NCBI GenBank assembly: GCA_944332225.1
Contig: CALVJO010000011.1
Coordinates: 1 to 45,609, forward strand
From: an uncultured Bacilli bacterium
GTDB taxonomy: Bacteria > Bacillota_I > Bacilli_A > RFN20 > CAG-449
Direction: 5' to 3'
Length of the DNA stretch: 45,609 bases
The stretch's first letter is position 1. Each line of letters begins with the position of its first letter. The position numbers and the translations under genes were made by a program. The notes beneath the pieces were generated by a model. The model searched no databases. It saw only the letters and a list, made by a program, of their open reading frames with translations, and had not been told where the DNA came from. Positions 7,876 to 29,984 of the stretch are shown piece after piece.

Positions 7876-8724
7876 TCATATAATCGTAAAATTAAAAATC
7901 ATCGCAATTAGCAATAAAGTAAATAAAGCAAGGACGACTATAGAACCAATAGAGTCTCTTACATGCCATTTCAAAACTCGATAACGGGTTCTTTTCTTAT
8001 CTGGATCATACCCTCTTGCTATCATCGCGTAAGCTAAATCAACGCTTCTAGATAAAGATGACGCAATCAAAGGAATAATTAAAGCGATGATCGCCCTAAC
8101 TTTTTCTTTGAATTTTCCTTCTTGAAAATCTACGCCTCTAGAAGCTTGGGCTTTCATTATTCGATCAGTCTCATCTAATAAAGTTGGGATGAATCGTAAA
8201 GTTAAAGATATCATCATAGCGATTATATGAACAGGAACTTTAATCCATTTTAAAGGATGCATCAGCCATTCAAGTCCATAAGTTAAATCCATCGGCTTCG
8301 TCGTGGAAGTTAATATCAAAGATAATGCAAGCATCAAGGCTAATCTTACAAAGACATAAAACGTAGTAATTAAAGCCGAATAATAAATTGTTAAATTAAT
8401 CCCAGGAATCGTAAAAGATACATATCCAAAGATTGAAAGATCATCTTTAATAGTGAATATATTGATAATCAAAATGATAATCATCATCATCCAAACCACT
8501 TTAAGCTGCTTAAATAATTGCTTTAAGCTAATATGAGCGATTCTCATCAAGATATAGATTCCAACCATCAAAAAGGCATAGACGATTAAATTAGTCCAAA
8601 GTGAACCATAAGAGAAAAACACCATAACCATACAAATGATCATAGAGACTATCTTTCCTCTAGGATCCATTCTATGAAGCAAGGTATCGTATTGAGAATA
8701 TCTTCCTAAAGAAATATTATTCAT
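7876..8724 (-). CDS. ecfT: ECF transporter transmembrane protein EcfT
   Basis: 282 residues with five to six membrane segments and a cytoplasmic coupling region carrying the two Ala-Arg-Gly-type motifs (QASRGVDF and IARGYDP) that contact the ATPases. N-terminal YDTLLHRMDPRGK is typical. It joins EcfA1/EcfA2 to exchangeable substrate-binding S components for vitamin and metal uptake. No S component is encoded in the window, so this is a group II (shared) module. It overlaps ecfA2 by 8 nt and has AGGAG seven bases before the ATG. It ends in TGA, evidence that UGA is a stop. Confidence 0.95.
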   Translation of the reverse strand: MNNISLGRYSQYDTLLHRMDPRGKIVSMIICMVMVFFSYGSLWTNLIVYAFLMVGIYILMRIAHISLKQLFKQLKVVWMMMIIILIINIFTIKDDLSIFGYVSFTIPGINLTIYYSALITTFYVFVRLALMLALSLILTSTTKPMDLTYGLEWLMHPLKWIKVPVHIIAMMISLTLRFIPTLLDETDRIMKAQASRGVDFQEGKFKEKVRAIIALIIPLIASSLSRSVDLAYAMIARGYDPDKKRTRYRVLKWHVRDSIGSIVVLALFTLLLIAMIFNFTII

Positions 8725-9907
8725 GGTATTTCTCCTTAATTTCGAGAGCTAAAGTATGAACATCCTTAACTTTAGTTAAATCAATCTTAAAACCTCGAGA
8801 AGATATTTTTTTAGCAAATTCGAAGACTAAAGGCTCATCTAAATTATATTTTTCTTTTAAATTATCTTGGGAAAATAATTCTTTAGGAGAGGTATCAGAA
8901 ACTAGTTTTCCGTGATTTAAAACTAAAACTCTAGTCGCATATTTTAAAACTAAGTCCATATCGTGAGTTATCATGATAATTTCAGTTCCGTTATGATATA
9001 AAAGGTTAAATAAAGACATGATTTCTTTAGTTCCAAGAGGATCTAATCCCGCGGTTGGTTCATCTAAGACTAAAATCTTTGGATTTAAAGCGATAATTCC
9101 CGCGATTGCAACTCTTCTCTTTTGACCTCCTGATAGTTCAAAAGGAGATCTTTCATATAAAGACTCATCGATTCCAACCATCTTTAAAGCATCTTTTGCC
9201 TTGCTTGTAGCCTCTTCTTTAGAAAAGCCAAAATTTCTTGGTCCAAAGGCGACATCTTCTAAAACAGTTTCTTCAAATAATTGATATTCAGGAAATTGAA
9301 AAACTAATCCTGCATACTTTTTTAATGACTTCAAACCTTTAATCTTTTTAATATTTGTGACTTCAAAAGCATCCTTTGAAGGAATCTTCTTAGAATATTT
9401 ATCTTTTAAATAGCTTCTAATATTTTTTAAAACAGAGTGATATAGAGAAGGGAATTGATTTCTATCATTCTTCCATTTCTTTTTATCATTATAAGAGCAA
9501 ATATTATCTAAATATTTATAACCGATTAAGTTAAACTTTTTAGGCTCAAGGAAGAAGATGATCTCATCGCTTTTATAGGCTAAAGAGATTAATTTATGTT
9601 CATGATATCCTTCATAGATTTTTCCTGAATCTAAAGAATCTGATAAACAATATACAGCATGCACGATCTCTTCTAATTCTTTTTGTAAGACAAAAGGAAC
9701 GATATCTCCGACGATCACCCTACCTTCAGTTGGTTTTAATAAAGCATTTATCTGCTGAACAAAAGTAGATTTTCCTGAACCGGTATGGCCCACTAAAGCT
9801 AAAAACTCATGAGAAGATATCTCAACATTAATATTCTCTAAAGCATCAGATTTAAAAGGGGTATTCTTTTGATAAACATAGAATACATTATCAAACTTTA
9901 TCGGCAT
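8717..9907 (-). CDS. ecfA2: ECF transporter ATPase EcfA2 with a large insertion
   Basis: 396 residues, versus about 290 for the family. All ABC motifs are present: Walker A GHTGSGKS (40-47), Q-loop in LVFQFPEYQLFEETV (about 201-215), signature LSGGQ (258-262), Walker B ILVLDEP (278-284). Between the VGD after Walker A (about 67) and AGLVFQ (199) there are about 130 residues where roughly 25 are normal: an insertion of about 105 residues (about 70-178) that is lysine-, tyrosine- and aspartate-rich and has no motif I know. Reading frame and motifs are intact, so the protein should be active. It overlaps ecfA1 by 10 nt. It powers vitamin/metal uptake with EcfA1 and EcfT. Confidence 0.93.
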   Translation of the reverse strand: MPIKFDNVFYVYQKNTPFKSDALENINVEISSHEFLALVGHTGSGKSTFVQQINALLKPTEGRVIVGDIVPFVLQKELEEIVHAVYCLSDSLDSGKIYEGYHEHKLISLAYKSDEIIFFLEPKKFNLIGYKYLDNICSYNDKKKWKNDRNQFPSLYHSVLKNIRSYLKDKYSKKIPSKDAFEVTNIKKIKGLKSLKKYAGLVFQFPEYQLFEETVLEDVAFGPRNFGFSKEEATSKAKDALKMVGIDESLYERSPFELSGGQKRRVAIAGIIALNPKILVLDEPTAGLDPLGTKEIMSLFNLLYHNGTEIIMITHDMDLVLKYATRVLVLNHGKLVSDTSPKELFSQDNLKEKYNLDEPLVFEFAKKISSRGFKIDLTKVKDVHTLALEIKEKYHE

Positions 9908-10713
9908 AAATAATCCTCTAAATCCTCGAGTTTAGAAATATTACCTACATCAATTCCTAAAGAGATTAATTCGTTTTTAAGCTTTAAAAAGAAAGGGATA
10001 TCTAATCCTAAGTTTTCTAATTCTTTTTCATTAGAAAATACCTTTTCAGGAATATCATCCATGATAATCTTCCCATCATTTAAAACGATGACTCTAGAAG
10101 AAAGATAGGCTTCTTCAACATCATGAGTAATTGATATAATAGTTAACTTAGGATTTTCTTTTCTAAGGCGATGAATCAAAGATATGATTTCTCTTTTCCC
10201 TTTAGGATCAAGCATCGCGGTTGATTCATCTAAGATGATAATTTCAGGTGCCATAGCAAGAACTCCCGCTAAGGCAACCCGTTGCTTTTGTCCCCCTGAA
10301 AGAGACGATGGTTCCTTATCTAAGAATTCATTCATTCCAACTAAAGTCGCGTATTTTAAAACGATAGGCTCCATCTCAGAAGTTGGAATCTGTTTATTTT
10401 CTAAGCCAAAAGCTATATCATCTCTAACCGTTGCTCCGATAAATTGATTATCTGGATTTTGAAAAACAATTCCAATTTTCTCTCGCTTCATCGATTCAGT
10501 AATTTCTTGATCATCTAAATAGATTATTCCATCATCAGGTTCAGGAATTAATCCTGCTATTATCTTTGCTAAAGTAGATTTACCCGAACCATTTTTACCG
10601 ATCAATGAGACATACTCCCCTTCTTCAACGCTAAAAGAGATGTCATTGATTGTTGGGACATCTTGCTCGTTATCATAATAGAATGTAATATGCTCTAATC
10701 TTAAATTACTCAT
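9898..10713 (-). CDS. ecfA1: ECF transporter ATPase EcfA1
   Basis: 271 residues, normal length and without an insertion. Walker A GKNGSGKST (about 39-47), Q-loop GIVFQNPDNQF, the switch region ATVRDDIAFGLEN typical of EcfA1, signature LSGGQKQR, Walker B IIILDESTAMLDP (Glu followed by Ser, typical of EcfA1) and an H-loop ITHD. Hydrolyses ATP in the heterodimer with EcfA2. The upstream Shine-Dalgarno is weak; the start overlaps the end of a 64-residue membrane protein by 8 nt, so coupled translation is likely. Confidence 0.96.
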   Translation of the reverse strand: MSNLRLEHITFYYDNEQDVPTINDISFSVEEGEYVSLIGKNGSGKSTLAKIIAGLIPEPDDGIIYLDDQEITESMKREKIGIVFQNPDNQFIGATVRDDIAFGLENKQIPTSEMEPIVLKYATLVGMNEFLDKEPSSLSGGQKQRVALAGVLAMAPEIIILDESTAMLDPKGKREIISLIHRLRKENPKLTIISITHDVEEAYLSSRVIVLNDGKIIMDDIPEKVFSNEKELENLGLDIPFFLKLKNELISLGIDVGNISKLEDLEDYLCR

Positions 10714-11443: not shown

Positions 11444-11473
11444 ATAAAAAAGAGGAAGTTTTGCTTCCTCTTA
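11444..11473 (-). terminator. Terminator of the LRR lipoprotein gene
   Basis: Minus-strand stem AGAGGAAG/CTTCCTCT (arms 11464-11471 and 11451-11458) followed by TTTTTTATGG, 15 bases after the stop codon. Confidence 0.85.
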
Positions 11474-11487
11474 TAACCTTATTATCT

Positions 11488-13377
11488 TTATTCAGTATAA
11501 ATGGTATCGGAAATGTATTGTAACATATATTCAGTCCAACCATTTTTAGATGATTCGCAGTAGCCTTTATAATCGTTTATATAAGTTTCGGAAGTGAAGT
11601 AAATTTTAAAAGTAGCTTTAACTCCTATAAATGAAGTTTCATCAACTTTAAATTTTGTTCCTACCTCATTTGGAATAACAATTCCATCTAAAGCGCAATT
11701 TTGTAAGGCATATTCTTTGATTCTATCAGTCTCAGCATTTAAAACAAACACGCCTGTCTTTGATTTATTTACATAAAGAACATCGCCATAATCAATTTCA
11801 GTAACTGTCGTTCCTGTTAGAGAATCATCATGGGTTGAAGAATAATATAATACTCCCTCATCTACAGCAAAGAACTTGTTTCCTTCTTCAACGATAACAT
11901 CTTCAATTCCTTCAGGAGCAAAGATTCCGCTATTGAGGTAAGTAACTGAGCTCTTAATAGTTAAATCACCTTCAAAAGCATTAGGAACATAATACAATCT
12001 TTGTAAAGTGTTATCTTTATAAAGCAACCCGTTTTCATCAGTAGACCAAGTTATATTTGTCGCATTTGGATCAATTGTGAATTTGCTGATTTTAATATTC
12101 TCTAAGGTATAATCATCACAGATTCCAGTAGAATAGGTGCAATGATCATCAATAACAAATTCAACAGGATCTTGAGCAGTTACATCAAACACTGAAAGAA
12201 TCTTACCAGAAGAATATTTTCCGCTATCAGCATTATAAGAGCTGAAGTCATAAAGGACAGAATATCCTTCATAATCGACTACTTCAAGATGAGTATTAGT
12301 TGAATCAATATAAATATCTTTTAAGCTAGTACAACCTCTAAACATGTCTTTACCGCGAGAAGATGAACCTCCGTTATTAGTAAAAATAACATGAGTTAAA
12401 GAAGTACAATTTTCAAAAGCATAATTACCTACTGATTTAGAATCAATTTCAAAGGACTCTAAGGAAGTGCAATCCTTGAAGGCTGAAGTTCCAATATTAT
12501 TGATATATAAAGAAACAGTATCAAGAGCGGTACATCCTTCAAATGCATTAGCATTAATTCTAATCGCAGTTGTAGTTTTACTATCCTCATAGACGATTTC
12601 TTTTAAATTAACGCATCCTTGGAAAGCTCTTTGGTCAATTGTTGTAACCGTCGAAGGAATATAAACTTTGACGATATCCTCTCTATTTGCATAGGCATCT
12701 TTTGCGATAGTTTTTAAAGGATCGCCATCTTCATCCACTGAAGGAACATGTAACTCAATCTCTTCAGGAACATAATTAAAGTCTAATTTAGCTTGAGCTA
12801 CGCTTTCTTGAGCAATTGTTTTAATCGCACTAGATGATGCAGTAGCACCTGATACATTATTAGTTACATTACCATCAGTTCCAATTAATCCTAAAGCATC
12901 ATCCGCAAAGATAGAATCATCTTGTAAGCTATGATAATTTTCACTAGTTTTAACATAATTAGAAATAGTGAAAGTATTAACATCGACGCTGAAATACATT
13001 TCTAATTCTTCAACAAATCCTATAGAAGTAGATACTCCTCGATAGATTACATGAGTAACAGTTCCATCAACTGAAGCATCATAACGATTCAATAATGTAG
13101 TCGCGCTTGTTTCAAAATCGCTAACAGCAGTGAAAGTTGCTCCTGGAACTAAACCTTCTAAAGTTTCTAAAACATTTGAAGGAATGTCTTCGCTAGGAGT
13201 CGAAGGCGTTGATGGGTTAGATGGATTAGATGAGGAGGTTTCCGATGTCTCGCTAGAAGTTGGAGACGATGTTCCTCCATTTGAAGAGCTAGTTGTACCA
13301 TCGCAGGCAGTTAATAATAAACCACCTCCTAGAAGACAAATAGCCGATAAAGTTAGTAGTTTCTTTAACGATTTCAT
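11488..13377 (-). CDS. Secreted lipoprotein: FMN_bind-like domain plus BspA-type leucine-rich repeats
   Basis: 629 residues. A lipoprotein signal (MKSLKKLLTLSAICLLGG..., lipobox LTAC, Cys about 25) is followed by a Ser/Thr/Pro-rich linker to about residue 65. Residues about 70-195 look like an FMN_bind domain: alternating beta-rich segments ending in NNVSGATASSSAI, where the Thr of SGAT (about 179) fits the site at which ApbE attaches FMN; the usual Asp three residues before the Ser is Asn. From about 235 come LRR_5 (BspA-like) repeats (IPSTVTTIDQRAF, GCVNLKEI, NAFEGCTALDTV, SAFKDCTSLESF, YAFENCTSLTHV), then further beta-rich sequence. The start at 13377 has GAGGGG seven bases upstream; the longer frame has no such site. 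Own promoter and terminator. Inferred role: surface-exposed, possibly redox-active or host-binding. Confidence 0.75.
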   Translation of the reverse strand: MKSLKKLLTLSAICLLGGGLLLTACDGTTSSSNGGTSSPTSSETSETSSSNPSNPSTPSTPSEDIPSNVLETLEGLVPGATFTAVSDFETSATTLLNRYDASVDGTVTHVIYRGVSTSIGFVEELEMYFSVDVNTFTISNYVKTSENYHSLQDDSIFADDALGLIGTDGNVTNNVSGATASSSAIKTIAQESVAQAKLDFNYVPEEIELHVPSVDEDGDPLKTIAKDAYANREDIVKVYIPSTVTTIDQRAFQGCVNLKEIVYEDSKTTTAIRINANAFEGCTALDTVSLYINNIGTSAFKDCTSLESFEIDSKSVGNYAFENCTSLTHVIFTNNGGSSSRGKDMFRGCTSLKDIYIDSTNTHLEVVDYEGYSVLYDFSSYNADSGKYSSGKILSVFDVTAQDPVEFVIDDHCTYSTGICDDYTLENIKISKFTIDPNATNITWSTDENGLLYKDNTLQRLYYVPNAFEGDLTIKSSVTYLNSGIFAPEGIEDVIVEEGNKFFAVDEGVLYYSSTHDDSLTGTTVTEIDYGDVLYVNKSKTGVFVLNAETDRIKEYALQNCALDGIVIPNEVGTKFKVDETSFIGVKATFKIYFTSETYINDYKGYCESSKNGWTEYMLQYISDTIYTE

Positions 13378-13419: not shown

Positions 13420-13447
13420 ATTATAGAAAATCATTTTTTTAAGTAAA
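13420..13447 (-). promoter_or_regulatory. Promoter of the LRR lipoprotein
   Basis: Minus strand -35 TTTACT (13442-13447), 16-nt spacer, perfect -10 TATAAT (13420-13425), about 45 bases before the start codon. The rest of the interval to 13611 contains no gene. Confidence 0.6.
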
Positions 13448-13599: not shown

Positions 13600-13634
13600 T
13601 ATAAATAAAAAAGAGAGACCATAAAAGCCTCTCT
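13600..13634 (-). terminator. Terminator of the ribosomal superoperon
   Basis: Minus-strand stem with arms 13627-13634 and 13612-13619 (AGAGAGGC and GTCTCTCT, one G-U pair) followed by TTTTTTATTTAT, 19 bases after the rplQ stop. It is the only clear terminator after rpsJ, so rpsJ to rplQ may be one long unit. Confidence 0.8.
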
Positions 13635-28923: not shown

Positions 28924-29451
28924 ATGAAACAAGAAAAAGAAGTCTCTACCGTTGAAAAGCAAATTAAAGATAAAAAACTAAGATTCGACCATCACTTCTC
29001 TTTAAAATGGAATATTGTCGATATCATTATCATCATTATCTTCTTTGTTATAGGTGGCTTCTTTTCTATCTATATTTACTTAATGCCAACTGATCCAGGA
29101 TCAAATGTTAATATTTACTACATGGGAGAAGAATTAATATCGCTTCCCCTATATGATGAAGAAAAATCTGATCCTAGATATGTGATTCTCTTTAAGGAAA
29201 ATGAGACCAGCGAATATGATTTAATTTATCAAAACAATTATAAGTTCTCTAATCTAAACAATTTAATCGATGATTTGATAATTGAGATTAATGATGGAGG
29301 CATCGAGATCGTCTTAGAAACATCTCCTAACCACATCTGCTCTAATCAAGGTAGAGTGACTAGACCAAACATCACTTTAACCTGCGCGCCTAATCATGTT
29401 TTTGCCTTAATCACTTCTGAAGGCGATGGAACCGGAGATGTAATCGTATGA
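28924..29451 (+). CDS. NusG domain II (NusG_II) membrane-anchored protein
   Basis: 175 residues: a charged cytoplasmic N-terminus, one membrane helix (about 31-53), then an extracytosolic domain. Its C-terminal part HICSNQGRVTRPNITLTCAPN (two Cys, 139 and 154) matches the NusG_II pattern 'CxxQGxIxxxGxxIxCLPN'. Such proteins regularly precede Gx transporters in Bacillota, often beside FMN_bind/ApbE genes. Its TGA stop overlaps the ATG of the next gene, so translation is coupled. The Shine-Dalgarno (AAGG, 2 nt) is poor. No role in transcription is implied by the name. Inference: a partner of an extracytosolic flavin or quinone system. Confidence 0.8.
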   Translation: MKQEKEVSTVEKQIKDKKLRFDHHFSLKWNIVDIIIIIIFFVIGGFFSIYIYLMPTDPGSNVNIYYMGEELISLPLYDEEKSDPRYVILFKENETSEYDLIYQNNYKFSNLNNLIDDLIIEINDGGIEIVLETSPNHICSNQGRVTRPNITLTCAPNHVFALITSEGDGTGDVIV

Positions 29452-29984
29452 AGAATGTAATCATCAAGAAAATTGCTACTTTATCGATGTTTTTAGCCTT
29501 AGCTATCCTTTTAAACTATGTGGAAAACTTTATTCCAACTTTTGTTCCTGGAGTAAAATTAGGTCTAGCCAACACGATGAACTTAATAATTCTCTATTTC
29601 TATGGTAGAAGAGAATATTTCTTAATCGGCTTTTTAAGAGTCTTAATCATCGGTTTACTATTTAATGGAATCTTTTCTTATTCCTTCTTCTATTCTCTAT
29701 CTGGATTTTTATTATCTTGCCTCGTCGTAATTGTCTTAAGCTATATTAAAAAACTATCTATATTCTCTTTAAGCGTTGTATCCGCGATGTGTCACGGAAT
29801 CGGTCAAATAATTTGCTCGATAGTCTTAAACTGGACAGCAGATGGCACATCTATATATATGCTAACATATCTTCCTTTACTTCTTGTAACAGGAGTTATA
29901 ACCGGAATATTAATCGCCTATTTATCTTCCTTAATCATCTCTAGATTAGAAAAAACGCCTTTATTTAAATCGATGAAAATTTAA
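29448..29984 (+). CDS. Gx transporter family / heptaprenyl diphosphate synthase component I-like membrane protein
   Basis: 178 residues, about five to six membrane helices. The motif PGVKLGLANTMNLIILYFYG (about 34-53) is the hallmark of the Hpre_diP_synt_I/Gx family, which resembles ECF S components in layout. It overlaps the NusG_II gene by 4 nt (ATGA). The family was named after a reported prenyl-diphosphate synthase subunit, but a transport or electron-transfer role is more plausible. Substrate unknown. Confidence 0.82.
   Translation: MKNVIIKKIATLSMFLALAILLNYVENFIPTFVPGVKLGLANTMNLIILYFYGRREYFLIGFLRVLIIGLLFNGIFSYSFFYSLSGFLLSCLVVIVLSYIKKLSIFSLSVVSAMCHGIGQIICSIVLNWTADGTSIYMLTYLPLLLVTGVITGILIAYLSSLIISRLEKTPLFKSMKI

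Follow-up and report, generated by a model that had tools for sequence, protein, structure and literature searches.

PplA of the Listeria extracellular electron transfer (EET) system is a lipoprotein with an FMN_bind-type flavin site, its ApbE-like transferase is likewise a lipoprotein, and PplA is not known to carry leucine-rich repeats (LRRs). The flavin of PplA is attached by the ApbE-like transferase, which receives its FAD by way of EetB and an ECF core (PMC9973259). EetB is defined by PF07456 and colocalizes with Rnf or EET genes; in Listeria it is an ECF-S subunit and, together with EcfA/EcfA' and the EcfT-like FmnA, delivers FAD across the membrane to the ApbE-like FmnB (PMC9973259). 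Other FMN_bind proteins outside the cytosol are the multi-flavinylated proteins, which are also secreted or lipidated, often have tandem domains, and are predicted substrates of ApbE (Meheust 2021, PMC8238504; SaFMN3 and CbFMN4, PMC10339131). Some of their gene clusters encode cell-wall-binding SLH, Rib, FIVAR or LysM modules (PMC8238504).

The stretch of DNA analysed here (the window, 45,609 nucleotides from an uncultured Bacilli bacterium) encodes a lipoprotein that resembles each of these systems in part. EetA and EetB are common to the window and the PplA system, whereas the candidate electron source here is Rnf; the Listeria-type EET components found in the genome are EetA, EetB and an ApbE-like transferase. 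While multi-flavinylated proteins are defined by more than one FMN_bind domain, the window protein has a single one followed by an LRR_5 solenoid, and its orthologues have two or three. RnfG and NqrC share the fold and the acceptor position predicted for the window domain, but they are membrane-helix-anchored subunits of ion-pumping complexes, whereas the window protein, a free lipoprotein, carries an LRR module. Finally, the BspA-type LRR proteins (4fs7, 4gt6, PcpA 4cp6 and TpLRR 6mlx) also display an LRR_5 solenoid at the surface; however, none of the four is named as a carrier of a redox cofactor, whereas the window protein has a predicted flavin domain before its repeats.

Multi-FMN proteins are already known (PMC10339131; PMC11334425), as are flavinylated proteins that carry a surface or cell-wall module. 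LRR and BspA go unmentioned in the 2021 survey's main text (PMC8238504), and the word "leucine" does not occur in the 2024 survey (PMC11334425). None of the papers examined names both FMN_bind and LRR_5, and a literature search returned no earlier description of their fusion, although supplementary tables may list it.

The lipoprotein gene (11488..13377, minus strand) is an open reading frame for 629 residues that starts with the ATG at 13377; its translation scores 1.7e-27 for LRR_5 and below threshold for FMN_bind in Pfam. The signal peptide (13303..13377, minus strand) carries the lipobox LLTAC, which predicts lipidation of Cys25; the orthologues have a lipobox too. A Ser/Thr/Pro-rich linker (residues 26-65; 13183..13302, minus strand) then leads to an FMN_bind-type, RnfG/NqrC-like domain (residues 66-206; 12760..13182, minus strand), assigned by AlphaFold, Foldseek and alignment A1, which ends in NNVSGATASSSAI. 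Its predicted flavin acceptor is Thr179, within the motif NNVSGAT (codon 12841..12843, minus strand), as located from the alignment of homologous domains and the published motif definition (PMC12052999). Residues 220-629 (11491..12720, minus strand) form a BspA-type LRR solenoid with a C-terminal extension. The LRR assignment is unequivocal: LRR_5 (PF13306) scores 96.2 bits (1.7e-27) against a cut-off of 27.7, the PDB sequence matches are 4fs7, 4gt6, 6mlx and 4cp6, and Foldseek retrieves the solenoid fold of the LRR proteins 4gt6, 4cp6 and 6mlx. The series of lipobox, Ser/Thr/Pro linker, NNVSGATASSSAI-ending domain and LRR_5 repeats described in the initial annotation was thus borne out on the minus strand.

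The gene sits between rplQ and a block of dCMP deaminase, ecfA, ecfA' and ecfT. Since a terminator-like hairpin lies on either side of it, one directly 3' of the stop codon (11450..11472, minus strand) and a second one upstream of the gene (13612-13634), it is probably transcribed alone, as a monocistronic message. A promoter-like site at 13420..13447 (minus strand), 5' of the gene, is a consensus match only, of a kind no commoner than in shuffles.

The FMN_bind nature of residues 66-206 is less apparent. A profile search, which had been suggested as a check, gave PF04205 only 12.8 bits on the window protein against a cut-off of 22 (E 0.19), whereas the same-genus orthologues reached 27.7 and 32.2 bits; Pfam, NCBIfam and PDB sequence searches with the window protein alone did not establish FMN_bind. 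The identification instead comes solely from the predicted structure, the orthologues and a profile of the whole family. An AlphaFold model of the domain, built on an alignment of 17 domains of the lipoprotein-domain family (A1), has a pLDDT of 87.7; its top Foldseek match is RnfG of C. tetanomorphum (7zc6_G; E 2.2e-4, TM 0.69), followed by RnfG of A. woodii (9eri_G) and then by A. vinelandii RnfG and NqrC chains. A profile of the lipoprotein domains made without RnfG finds the RnfG of the same genome at 30 bits, while 900 shuffles reach at most 11. PF04205 is matched by 11 of the 17 family members, at best with 6.6e-7. When searched across the class, A1 matches the PF04205 domains of RnfG and of flavin reductases. 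Among these are short RnfG proteins, which carry DTISGATISSS, and proteins resembling fumarate reductase, which carry DGVSGATVTS. In NCBIfam the domain set gave only weak RnfG matches, and the best PDB profile match, the crystallized multi-FMN domain 8p2b, is weak (E 0.087). Taken at the level of sequence and model, residues 66-206 are a divergent FMN_bind domain of the RnfG/NqrC fold.

The published flavinylation motif is Dxx[ST]GA[ST] (PMC12052999). The window protein contains a complete SGAT, with Asn173 in place of the published Asp. In a K. pneumoniae enzyme, changing this Asp to Ala has little effect, and a Gly-to-Ala or Ala-to-Val change leaves about half of the flavinylation (PMC12052999). 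Conservation of the SGAT threonine had been named as a point on which the proposal would stand or fall, and it stood: 15 of the 17 homologous domains have Thr in the acceptor column and the other 2 have Ser, while the preceding S, G and A columns vary. The [S/T]GAT pattern of ApbE targets with Asn for Asp, as initially annotated, is present in the window protein but degenerate in some orthologues. Specifically, none of the three domains in either syntenic same-genus orthologue has a strict [ST]GA[ST]; their motifs are TGLT, TGVT or AGAT, and AHAT. Selection on flavinylation may have been relaxed in these orthologues, and their motif drift is, on sequence grounds, the main argument against uniform flavinylation. 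On the other hand, the RnfG motifs SGTS (own genome) and AGTS (G001, a genome of the same genus) are both non-canonical, from which we infer that the ApbE of this lineage probably accepts motif variants.

An apbE gene, whose presence in the genome had likewise been proposed as a check, is found on contig C17. It encodes a lipoprotein that scores 136 bits and retains the Ser-His-Asp triad spacing (16/28) of V. cholerae ApbE (residues from PMC12052999). The lipobox of the window protein and this apbE together place a predicted extracytosolic lipoprotein and a candidate transferase for it in one genome. A candidate FAD exporter subunit for ApbE, an EetB-like ECF-S component (PF07456, 110.9 bits), is encoded within the window at 29448..29984 (plus strand), directly downstream of an EetA-like gene (NusG_II, PF07009, 50.2 bits; 28924..29451, plus strand). 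This pair (28924-29984, plus strand) is divergent from the ribosomal protein operon and lies away from apbE. The ECF core (7876..10713, minus strand) comprises EcfT (7876-8724; CbiQ, 136 bits), EcfA' (8717-9907) and EcfA (9898-10713), recognized from their open reading frames and, for the ATPases, ABC_tran. The EcfA' ATPase (8717-9907, minus strand) has an insertion of ~110 residues that separates its Walker A region from the remainder of the ABC domain, and its length is nearly equal in the same-genus genomes G001 and G002. RnfC, D, G, E, A and B are encoded on contig C40 (RnfD, 255 bits). This machinery makes flavinylation of the window lipoprotein possible, to judge from the gene content; since ApbE, EetB and Rnf would all be needed for Rnf alone, its presence is no proof that the lipoprotein is a substrate. 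ApbE and RnfD each occur in 7/7 genomes with a strong member of the domain family, compared with 85/147 overall (p about 0.02, kinship not corrected). The lipoprotein gene of the window lies beside ribosomal genes and is unlinked to apbE or Rnf. In G082, a genome of another family in the same order, the FMN_bind-LRR gene lies ~6 kb downstream of an RnfC-D-G-E-A-B-apbE-eetA-eetB cluster on the same strand.

The RnfG of the window's genome (L005:2119-3684, C40) is a 521-residue protein with two FMN_bind domains, both with SGTS; because the two are identical at 165/170 residues and 501/510 nucleotides, the repeat either arose by duplication very recently or is an artefact of assembly, and the RnfG of G001 has a single copy. 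In G082 the gene at the RnfG position (L066:5156-8170) encodes 1004 residues with about six FMN_bind-like repeats whose motifs have drifted; the genes after it are RnfE, A, B, apbE, eetA and eetB. RnfD of the window's genus is ~650 residues long (L005:3686-5659; L067:3963-5906) and has a C-terminal extension, with its end near LKTGATYTANAF or HVGATYTANGF, that may be an FMN_bind-like domain fused to RnfD; comparably long RnfD frames (530-996 residues) occur in many relatives. ApbE of the genus is ~600 residues long (L006:8161-10002; L067:14803-16599), its ApbE domain being split by a ~150-residue insertion; the ApbE of G082 has 354 residues. Neither the ApbE insertion nor the RnfD tail was significant with the domain profile, and they were dropped as further family members. 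Finally, contig C12 of the window's genome (L027:6116-7558) encodes a 480-residue lipoprotein with three tandem domains of the family (SGAS, SGAT and SGAT), which adjoins glycerol-kinase-like and oxidoreductase-like genes; the synteny is kept in G001 and G002.

The domain family is found in 7 of 147 related genomes, the window's own included, often in tandem copies, and a scan of the genome contigs for further relatives gave only those already in the set. The syntenic gene in G001 and G002, located between rplQ/rpoA and dCMP deaminase with syntenic genes on both sides, encodes 926 residues with three domains followed by LRRs and passes both curated cut-offs (FMN_bind 27.7 and 32.2; LRR_5 82.9 and 82.0). 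The protein of G082 has one domain plus LRRs and is 41% identical to the window protein over 564 residues (41-45% for G001, G002 and G082). A 904-residue lipoprotein of G349, from a different family of the same class, is encoded beside a tuf/fusA/rpsG/rpsL operon (L096:7291-10005). It has two near-identical domains with VSGATISS in each (FMN_bind, 49.0 bits), LRR_5 repeats (168.6 bits) and a Listeria-Bacteroides repeat. Elsewhere the same domain stands alone in three copies (G000:C12 and G001:C1) or is joined to other modules without LRRs (G054, with Big_2, and G056). Genes adjoining the homologues in G054 and G056, considered as ECF-S/EetB candidates, proved to be GtrA-type. LRR_5 proteins are numerous in these genomes, and in the plasmid collection the matches listed were LRR matches only. 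As far as sequences and the model can tell, four genomes of the order have kept the FMN_bind-LRR fusion, and it is met again, with canonical SGAT motifs, in another family of Bacilli. The fusion proposed in the initial annotation is almost certainly real: orthologues exceed both Pfam cut-offs, the predicted fold is RnfG/NqrC-like, and the arrangement returns in G349.

We consider it likely that the window lipoprotein is an ApbE-flavinylated, membrane-tethered extracytoplasmic electron carrier displayed with an LRR binding module, perhaps fed by Rnf. The anchor, the RnfG/NqrC fold, the position of Thr179 and the LRR solenoid are established at the level of prediction. In the proposed pathway, EetB and the ECF core would export FAD, from which the lipoprotein ApbE would transfer FMN onto Thr179. 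The tethered flavin would receive electrons either from the three-domain FMN_bind lipoprotein or from the Rnf flavins (RnfG/RnfD), and would hand them to an acceptor outside the membrane. The LRR domain would bind a surface, polymer or partner, so placing the flavin near the acceptor; its target would be the acceptor itself, the acceptor's carrier, or an envelope partner. Covalent flavinylation of the window protein is predicted with good confidence, and an adhesin role is likewise a prediction. An Rnf-linked electron supply is plausible but falls a little short of an even chance, and LRR-mediated targeting of the redox domain is a more tentative suggestion still.

A different view is that the fold was kept and the flavin lost, so that the domain would serve an LRR adhesin as a stalk or for docking, possibly still in contact with Rnf or the multi-FMN lipoprotein. 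Three observations favour this view: the syntenic orthologues have drifted to AHAT, TGLT and TGVT, PF04205 scores below threshold on the window protein, and its gene has no operon link to redox genes in its own genome. However, an acceptor kept in 17/17 domains while the adjoining motif columns vary, and a complete SGAT in the window protein itself, speak against a lost flavin. Variants are probably accepted by the ApbE of a genome whose RnfG bears SGTS, and motif mutants of a K. pneumoniae enzyme are still flavinylated in part or nearly in full (PMC12052999). We therefore regard loss of the flavin as unlikely, if a credible contender. The flavinylated domain might otherwise serve in a role other than electron export, such as extracellular redox sensing, a local reductase partnership or protection of Rnf, with the LRRs bound to another protein in the cell's own envelope. 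LRRs serve generally as scaffolds for protein binding, and relatives join the same domain to Big_2 and other modules rather than to LRRs. FMN_bind domains also occur in varied systems (PMC8238504). But the window protein has no reductase or sensor domain and no linked partner gene, and we regard such a role as unlikely.

Two simpler explanations fare worse. As the window protein is rich in Ser and Thr, an [ST]GA[ST] string arises in 10% of its shuffles and is weak evidence by itself (the longer [ST]GA[ST]xx[ST]xA arises in 0.14%), so that an ordinary BspA-type LRR lipoprotein might carry SGAT by chance. It is homology, as seen in the structure, the orthologues and the profile searches, that lifts the motif above chance: the Foldseek matches to RnfG/NqrC, the orthologues above both Pfam cut-offs and the profile links to RnfG refute this explanation and leave it very improbable. 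A chimaeric reading frame, due to assembly or frameshift, could be imagined for a draft genome of 48 contigs. Nevertheless, the FMN_bind-LRR order is also present in G001, G002, G082 (41-45% over 564 residues) and G349, and the flanking genes are syntenic in G001 and G002; these alignments and the synteny refute an assembly chimaera and reduce its probability to practically nothing.

The preferred reading, a flavinylated carrier displayed with an LRR module, can be extended to a redox adhesin, in which the LRRs would attach the cell to one particular electron acceptor, insoluble or macromolecular, and the covalent flavin, supplied by Rnf, would reduce it. Candidate acceptors would include a mucus glycoprotein, a plant polymer, a humic surface or a partner cell. 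We think this extension rather improbable; if true, it would represent an end module for electron export with built-in target recognition, in Bacilli with reduced genomes, which may have no other respiration. Extracellular proteins that carry covalent flavin are widespread. The genome that encodes the fusion also has a candidate source of electrons and a route for supplying flavin, and the fusion together with the flavin-attaching enzymes suggests an electron-transfer protein able to hold something outside the cell. The FMN_bind-LRR fusion, which recurs across families of Bacilli, is a case open to test in which one molecule unites a binding module and an electron carrier.
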